From: Armatimonadota bacterium
GTDB lineage: Bacteria; Armatimonadota; DTGP01; JAKQQT01
NCBI GenBank assembly: GCA_036504095.1
Contig: DASXVS010000071.1
Coordinates: 1-64,000, forward strand
Direction: 5' to 3'
Length of the DNA stretch: 64,000 bases
Below are positions 15,316-20,101 of the stretch, one piece after another (the stretch's first letter is position 1; each line of letters starts with the position of its first letter). The notes beneath the pieces were generated by a model. That model ran no database searches and was not told where the DNA came from. It saw only the letters and a list, made by a program, of their open reading frames with translations. The translations under genes were made by a program, and so were the position numbers.

Positions 15316-16770
15316 ATGAAAAAACTCCTGTTCTACGCCATGGTGGGCTGTCTCGCGTTGGTCGCGCTGGCAAGATGCCGCGACTGCGCCACGACGCCTC
15401 GCGTGCTCGCCGCCGAGGCCGTGTCCCCCGTGAAAGGGGACCTGGTGATCGACTTTCTTGGTGGTGTACGCGGGTATGTCGAACCCTGTGGGTGACACTC
15501 CGGCCAGTACGGCGGTATCGCCCGTTGGGCGACCTACATCAATAAATCCCGTAAGGACCACCCTGCCGAACTCGCGCTCTTCGCGGGGGGCATGCGTCTC
15601 AGCGGTGGACCCGTGAACGATCTGCAGGTTTCAACCCTGTGGGACGCGTACACGCGCATGAAATTCGACGCCGCAACGCTGTGTTCCAGCGACCTGCCGG
15701 ACCTGGATCGCCTCCCCCCTGCGGCAAGGCCGATCCTCGTCTCCGCCAACGTGACCTACCAGGGCGGGCCCAAGGACGGAAAGCCGATTGCGCCGCCGAT
15801 CCTCTACAAACGGCTCAAAACGTCGGAGGGAAAGACCGTGGTGGTCGCCATCATCGGCCTCCTGGGCGATGATCCATATCTCGCGCTGCCATCGCCGGCG
15901 AATTCGCCGACGGACAAGCCGTGGAAAGTCAGCAGCCCGGACGAAGCGCTCAAGCAGCTTGTTCCCACAGCGCGGCGCAAGGCGACGGTAGTCGTCGTCA
16001 TGTTTGCCGGTCAAAGGGAAAGCGGCCGCAAACTGCTTGAAGCCAACCCCGGGGTGGACGTGATGGTCGTGGGGCTCGAAGGCGCTCTCGAGCATAACAT
16101 GCTGCCGGTTGGAAAGAGCATGCTCGTCCAGAATGCCGATCGCGGGCGTTATGCAGGGCAGTTGGGCATCACGCTGGACAAGGACTTGAAGCCTGCTTCC
16201 TATGACCTCCGCAATTATACGATGGATGCGACCTTTGCGGACGATCCGGCGATGGCCGCCATGGTGAAGGATTTCCACGAGAAGCAGACCAAAATCGTGC
16301 CCCCGATGGTCGCCGCTCAGCCGAGCGTTCCAGTCAAGAAGAGCGATTGGGCAGGCTCCTATATGTGCGCCTCCTGCCACTCCGTTGAGTTCAATCAGTG
16401 GAAGACCACGAAGCATTTCGCCGCGATGGTTACCCTGGAACAGAAAGACGGAGGCCAGGCCGCCAAGCGCGCCGACTGCGTCGGCTGCCATGTGGTGGCC
16501 AATGACAAACCGGGCGGATATTCCGTTGCCATGCCGAGGTGGGATCTGAAGGGTGTGGGGTGCGAGGCTTGCCACGGTCCCGCCGCCGCACACGTCGATG
16601 CCCGATTGCGCCAGTTGGCCGACCCCTCCAAGATGATCGCCAACCCGGGACAAACCGTCTGCGTCACGTGCCACACCAAAGACAACAGCCCGGCCTTCGA
16701 CTTCGCCACGTACCACCAGAAGATCGTCCACAAACCGGCTGCAGCCCCGACAGCCCCGACAGCCCCATAA
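15316..16770 (+). CDS. Tetrahaem cytochrome c554-like protein with UshA-like N-terminal domain; in-frame TGA at codon 60
   Basis: One continuous frame from the ATG at 15316 to the TAA at 16770 is broken only by a TGA at 15493-15495 (codon 60). Upstream are a signal peptide and the GGVRGYVEPCG motif; downstream the same frame resumes at once with HSGQYGGIARWATYI. From what I know of related 5'-nucleotidase-like/cytochrome proteins, this motif is usually EPCGC, so TGA stands where a Cys codon is expected. A SECIS-like hairpin follows. Four CxxCH haem sites lie near residues 351 (CASCH), 388 (CVGCH), 416 (CEACH) and 449 (CVTCH), followed by an Ala/Pro tail. Selenocysteine is the most interesting reading; a nonsense mutation or sequencing error is the alternative. 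The role is probably periplasmic electron transfer. Confidence 0.8.
15496..15528 (+). promoter_or_regulatory. SECIS-like hairpin directly after the in-frame TGA
   Basis: GGCG (15511-15514) pairs with CGCC (15519-15522) around the loop GTAT. The stem continues through AC/GT with one bulged C (15523), and then CCA (15504-15506) with TGG (15526-15528) after a two-base bulge. The loop starts 19 bases after the TGA and begins with G, both within what is known for bacterial SECIS elements. The stem was found by eye; its energy was not calculated. Confidence 0.5.
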
Positions 16771-19546: not shown

Positions 19547-19651
19547 AGATTGTGATCGGCGGTGCGCCGGCAGCGACGCCCACCCAGTTTCGAGGAGACA
19601 CACGAGCCGTTGCCGATGCGGCGGCGCGTATTACCACCGAGGAGGGAAGAC

Positions 19652-20101
19652 ATGCGCATTATCCATCTCCTGCCCGTCGTGGCCATCACTTCAGCCATGA
19701 TTGCGGGCTGTAAACCGGCCCCAGTGACCACTCCCCCGGCGACGCCCCCGGCAGCCCCAGGAGCGCCGGGCGGGCCGCCGATGCCGGCCGGACCGCCGAT
19801 GCCGGCGGGCCCGCCAATGCCGGGCGCTCCCGCAGCGGCCACCGCATCCGGTACAAGCGGGAAAGACATATTCGCCAAGAACTGCGCGGGATGCCACGGG
19901 GCCAAGGGCGAAGGCCGTCTGGCCGGCGCTCCGAAGTTCGCCGATCCGGCGTGGCAGAAGGGGCAGGACGATGCGGAGCTGATCGGCATCATCCGCAACG
20001 GCAAGGGCCGGATGCCGGTCTGGAAAGACAAGCTGACGGATAAGCAGATCACCACCGTCGAGGCGTACATCCGCACGTTGGGCCGCGCTCCAAAGAAGTA
20101 G
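19652..20101 (+). CDS. Monohaem cytochrome c lipoprotein
   Basis: The 149-aa protein has a lipoprotein signal peptide with lipobox MIAGC (Cys20). A Pro/Gly/Ala-rich linker follows (residues 24-65), built around repeated GPPMPA units. The cytochrome c domain has haem site CAGCH (78-82) and a likely axial Met in GRMPVW. It resembles small class I cytochromes (cytochrome cbb3/CccA type). The ATG at 19652 is chosen for its GAGGAGGG ribosome site. It probably carries electrons at the membrane surface. A strong terminator follows. Confidence 0.9.
   Translation: MRIIHLLPVVAITSAMIAGCKPAPVTTPPATPPAAPGAPGGPPMPAGPPMPAGPPMPGAPAAATASGTSGKDIFAKNCAGCHGAKGEGRLAGAPKFADPAWQKGQDDAELIGIIRNGKGRMPVWKDKLTDKQITTVEAYIRTLGRAPKK

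Follow-up and report, generated by a model that had tools for sequence, protein, structure and literature searches.

Is the single in-frame TGA of a tetrahaem cytochrome gene from an Armatimonadota bacterium a stop signal, a damaged cysteine codon or a codon for selenocysteine (Sec)? The gene lies within the window, by which we mean the whole 64,000-nucleotide stretch of DNA that was analysed. Translation confirmed what the first-pass annotation had read there, namely that one TGA, at residue 60, breaks an otherwise continuous frame of 484 residues, which ends at a TAA. With the TGA translated as Sec, its context is VEPCG-U-HSGQYGG. The GC content at codon positions 1, 2 and 3 is 0.68, 0.47 and 0.75 before the TGA and 0.63, 0.47 and 0.77 after it, i.e. 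nearly equal on either side, so that both halves look coding. When the gene is compared to its relatives, most differences are found at third codon positions on both sides of the TGA, which fits the expectation for a translated frame, and the frame is free of any other damage. The proposal that the TGA specifies Sec draws further support from the Sec machinery of the genome, the TGA of an orthologue, the exchange of Sec and Cys among homologues and a hairpin tied to the TGA. Judging from these comparisons of sequences, the product of the gene is very probably a true selenoprotein and belongs, as a divergent member, to the superfamily of UshA-like PCGU (seleno)proteins, which had been catalogued before. 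Its features are collected in Table 1.

Table 1. Features of the UshA-like selenoprotein gene, in window coordinates
Feature	Position	Strand	Basis
UshA-like tetrahaem selenoprotein gene, 484 residues, putative Sec at residue 60	15316..16770	+	Translation; NCBIfam NF041198, 208.9 bits (cut-off 275); Pfam Cytochrome_C554
Predicted N-terminal export signal, hydrophobic helix 2-22, ...VLAAEA	15316..15411	+	Read from sequence; helix in AlphaFold2 model
5'-nucleotidase/SoxB-fold domain, about residues 41-320, degenerate metal ligands	15436..16275	+	Profile matches to 5'-nucleotidases and SoxB; Foldseek E 1e-18; ligand columns not conserved
PCGU motif, P57-C58-G59-U60	15484..15495	+	C58 and C/U60 invariant
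TGA probably read as selenocysteine	15493..15495	+	Sec machinery; orthologue L039 with TGA at this codon, paralogue L034 with TGC
Bacterial SECIS-like hairpin; core stem 15518-15523 with 15527-15532, loop GUU 15524-15526	15514..15536	+	Folding, Sec/Cys comparison, bSECIS rules (PMC13188914)
c554-type tetrahaem module, CXXCH at residues 351, 388, 416, 449	16366..16674	+	CXXCH motifs; Pfam Cytochrome_C554

The first-pass annotation had proposed a search of the same genome for the Sec machinery, and the complete set is there. The source genome (4.68 Mb in 80 contigs, 98.6% complete) carries tRNA-Sec (74.2 bits for a cut-off of 47, with anticodon TCA according to ARAGORN), SelA (486 bits for a cut-off of 268), SelB (367 for 242) and SelD (373 for 125); since all of these exceed their cut-offs, the organism should be able to decode UGA as Sec. 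In this genome SelD has no internal TGA, the formate dehydrogenase profile gave weak matches below cut-off, none of them with a TGA, and no Rdx/SelW-like or CMD/AhpD selenoprotein was found. The class of the source organism is represented by three genomes in the collection searched, and G001 is the sole other genome of its family there. tRNA-Sec is present in G001; SelB was not found in this assembly, which is fragmented into 760 contigs.

It is G001, from another genus of the family, that provides the orthologue (L039): the protein is 48% identical, the TGA occupies the same codon, and in both genomes a phosphoglucomutase gene comes after the UshA-like gene. The source genome itself also holds a paralogue (L034; C68:4423-5850), 55% identical and with TGC at the Sec site, which the first-pass annotation had overlooked. 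Further away, two more distant genomes of the same phylum (L059 and L062), both with tRNA-Sec and SelB, have a TGA at the homologous site, and relatives occur in named genomes of Planctomycetota, Verrucomicrobiota, Myxococcota, Pseudomonadota, Thermodesulfobacteriota, Eiseniibacteriota, Poribacteria and others; none was found in plasmid records or in viral contigs. The earlier suggestion that the TGA stands in for the Cys of EPCGC relatives, which an alignment of homologues was to check through Cys/Sec alternation, agrees with what is seen: the residue is Sec in 20 and Cys in 71 of 91 full homologues, though the search pattern that gathered them demanded one of these two residues, so that part of this uniformity is built in. 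One further set of aligned relatives was chosen with no C/U requirement at the site. In alignments of 33 and of 40 rows, columns 58 and 60 do not vary. On the tree of homologues 7 changes between Sec and Cys are needed, at least 4 of them on well-supported branches, and the sequence of a named member of Fimbriimonadales (L070) branches as sister to that of a genome of the same phylum with a support of 99, which makes Armatimonadota the probable phylum. The window gene groups with its Cys paralogue and the orthologue of G001 in a single clade (SH-aLRT support 100); because two of these three members carry Sec, one plausible reading is that the ancestor of the clade had Sec and that the paralogue later changed to Cys. 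In three genomes of different taxa, Sec and Cys paralogues adjoin in tandem (L104:6327-9350, L094:4834-7946 and L140:6942-10078).

These comparisons bear directly on whether the TGA could be a sequencing or assembly error, the true codon being one for Cys, or the mark of a gene recently broken by a nonsense change. TGC and TGT are each one base away from TGA, and the window belongs to the 80-contig assembly. Against this, the orthologue of another genus has kept the TGA at the same codon while about half of the residues changed, a TGA is found at the site in 18 further homologues, most of them of other phyla, no other damage is seen in the frame, and the hairpin described below goes together with the TGA. 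We therefore consider an error or a pseudogene very improbable. Even less probable, in our estimation, is that UGA simply terminates and that an internal start (e.g. the ATG at 15592, giving 392 amino acids) yields a second product, a leaderless cytochrome. Exactly this ORF would come out of a gene caller using translation table 11, but it would lack both the export leader needed for attachment of c-type haems and the conserved PCGx motif, and the homologues with Cys at the site are single continuous proteins. A hydrophobic leader also opens the orthologous and paralogous proteins.

Sec insertion in bacteria calls for a hairpin (bSECIS) within published limits: a loop of 3-9 nt, a stem of 4-16 bp, a G in the first two bases of the loop, a spacing of 16-37 nt and a minimum free energy of -7.5 kcal/mol or lower (PMC13188914). 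The core hairpin of the window gene, UCGCCC-GUU-GGGCGA (15518-15532), lies within all of them, with 6 bp, a 3-nt loop, a spacing of 28 nt and -9.5 kcal/mol. Two extra pairs beginning at 15514 extend the core stem and account for the distance of 19 bases past the TGA at which a hairpin with a G-first loop had first been noticed. Folding of the region after the TGA, another of the proposed checks, thus gives the hairpin, though with an energy that is unremarkable by itself: relative to shuffles of the 53-nt stretch z is -0.45, and about 10-12% of synonymous recodings fold equally well. Folding energy was consequently dropped as stand-alone proof of a SECIS, and the comparison of Sec and Cys genes was used instead. 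A perfect 6-bp stem in the same register is present in 6 of 15 Sec genes and in none of 59 Cys genes, with a Fisher p of 2.7e-5 that is to be taken as descriptive, since the register was picked once the hairpin of the window gene and the folds of Sec genes had been viewed. The Sec genes concerned span the source class, Eiseniibacteriota and Myxococcota. Among the 9 of 15 without a perfect in-register stem, two retain the stem through G-U pairs, and in several of the others a candidate hairpin with a GGUCU-like loop lies at a shorter distance from the UGA. Compensatory changes altering both sides are seen at two stem pairs. The Cys paralogue encodes the same amino acids, IARWAT, with a broken stem (-1.3 kcal/mol versus -9.5 in the window gene). 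Finally, the margin over synonymous recodings is larger in Sec than in Cys genes (p = 3e-5); the hairpin tests treat related sequences as independent, and relatedness inflates their p-values. It is this comparative test, rather than energy, that makes the putative SECIS hairpin convincing.

To which family does the protein belong? The best NCBIfam match is NF041198 (UshA_like_PCGU, ‘UshA-like (seleno)protein’), with 208.9 bits and an E-value of 1.2e-61. The equivalog cut-off of 275 bits is not reached, which makes the window protein a divergent relative; the orthologue (220.5) and the Cys paralogue (207.4) are also under it. Other Sec homologues fall on both sides, 246.7, 250.0 and 273.6 below and 280.8, 344.7 and 522.6 above, and all 33 homologues tested match the profile. 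The PCG[U/C] site, the 5'-nucleotidase-like domain and the tetrahaem module behind it, which mark the wider NF041198 superfamily, are all present. What sets the window protein apart from NF041198 is its score under the cut-off and its own clade with orthologue and paralogue. NF049981 (UshA_like_Sel_2, ‘UshA-like (seleno)protein family 2’) shares a related N-terminal domain (residues 44-127, E 1.8e-8), but the window protein scores 34.2 bits for a cut-off of 140, and the motif of that family is CxxU and not CxU (PMC13188914). ExtKL (NF040886) is likewise a multihaem c-type (seleno)protein, yet it constitutes a separate family, its profile giving the window protein 11.9 bits where 250 are required. 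Selenoproteins of the UshA-like kind that carry a CxU motif appeared already in the 2008 GOS survey (PMC2398784), then in a 2022 review (PMC9312934), and a 2026 review lists them with the name NF041198 (PMC13188914). Given these NCBIfam entries and papers from 2008 onward, the suggestion of a possibly undescribed selenoprotein family cannot be upheld. The novelty lies in a clade below the cut-off, with Sec and Cys copies of its own, in a class of three genomes. In the sources that we consulted, no function is given for the PCGU family, and titles and abstracts on Armatimonadota and selenocysteine held nothing bearing on the window gene.

The first-pass annotation had placed a CGU redox or metal site in a periplasmic tetrahaem protein. 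The CGU motif, the leader and the four CXXCH motifs stand, and together with Pfam PF13435 (Cytochrome_C554; 58.6 bits for a cut-off of 20.8) the latter identify a predicted c554-like tetrahaem cytochrome; the degenerate 5'-nucleotidase/SoxB-fold domain in front of it had been overlooked. When compared to the PDB, the family profile matches 5'-nucleotidases, SoxB and cytochrome c554, and the AlphaFold2 model of the window protein (mean pLDDT 82.5) retrieves 5'-nucleotidases (E 1e-18) and SoxB (E 1.4e-15) with Foldseek. The protein thus resembles 5'-nucleotidase UshA/CD73 and the thiosulfohydrolase SoxB in fold and profile match, but differs from them by the absence of metal ligands and by the presence of PCG[C/U] and four haems. 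In the alignment to the Thermus 5'-nucleotidase, EPCGC comes immediately behind the DxH metal motif.

One could then imagine a true selenoprotein that is a working metallophosphoesterase of the 5'-nucleotidase type, with Sec as a metal ligand instead of a redox residue. The clear 5'-nucleotidase/SoxB fold and the position of C58-U60 beside the old DxH motif would suit it; nevertheless we find it unlikely, since in the alignments the ligands DxH, D-x-G-D, GNHE and GHxH show no conservation across the family and are missing from the window protein, where no intact metallophosphoesterase/5'-nucleotidase metal site (DxH ... D ... GNHE ... H ... GHxH) was found, and since a domain that is fused to four haems and alternates between Cys and Sec is more in keeping with redox chemistry. 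With metal-ligand columns that are not conserved and C58 and C/U60 invariant, an exported redox protein is the best-supported mechanism, and C58-U60 is most likely a redox pair wired to the haems. In such a protein the UGA at 15493 would be decoded as Sec by SelB and Sec-tRNA(Sec), insertion being directed by the hairpin, as the comparative evidence suggests. Leader and CXXCH motifs predict that the product is exported and loaded with four c-type haems. The front domain keeps the 5'-nucleotidase/SoxB fold while, on the alignments, its metal-binding residues are gone, and C58-U60 is located just past the position of the former DxH motif and would sit in that pocket. There the pair would, as the likeliest mechanism, form a reversible selenenylsulfide, through which electrons may pass between a small substrate or a partner protein and the tetrahaem module.

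No conserved partner gene was found beside the Sec members that were scanned. At about 18 of the 71 Cys-form loci, a gene for an exported DUF1573 protein with a TSCGC motif is located just upstream of the UshA-like gene, often overlapping it (examples are L072, L080, L084, L068, L106, L136, L100, L041, L044, L045, L046, L051 and L085). Such a neighbour is found neither at any of the 20 Sec-form loci nor at the window gene (Fisher p of about 0.01 for a count of 19, relatedness ignored), and the DUF1573 protein is possibly a partner of the Cys form. The contig of the Cys paralogue also carries a gene cluster (G000:C68:28133-31419, i.e. L035:8133-11419) for a multihaem cytochrome rich in CXXCH motifs, a small c554-like protein with four haems and an NHL-repeat-like protein. 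In the window, a gene for a small single-haem c-type cytochrome (KNCAGCHG; 19562-20101) is found near the selenoprotein gene, beside sugar-nucleotide genes, and the very start (69-139) matches an Rfam group II intron fragment (42.2 bits for a cut-off of 40).

At this point we may only tentatively propose that the window gene and its orthologue represent a separate subfamily that uses Sec and falls outside the NF041198 equivalog. In its members a dead phosphoesterase pocket would have become a C-x-Sec redox centre connected to four haems, and the organism would maintain one Sec and one Cys copy for different conditions or partners. Annotation of this lineage with translation table 11 would drop the N-terminus of the selenoprotein and name the remainder a leaderless cytochrome. 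The use of Sec in the UshA-like family is extended to a class of which the collection searched contains only three genomes, and where the syntenic orthologue and the Cys paralogue of the same genome constitute a natural control. That the phosphoesterase domain has lost its metal site and is fused to haems leads to a specific and testable redox hypothesis.
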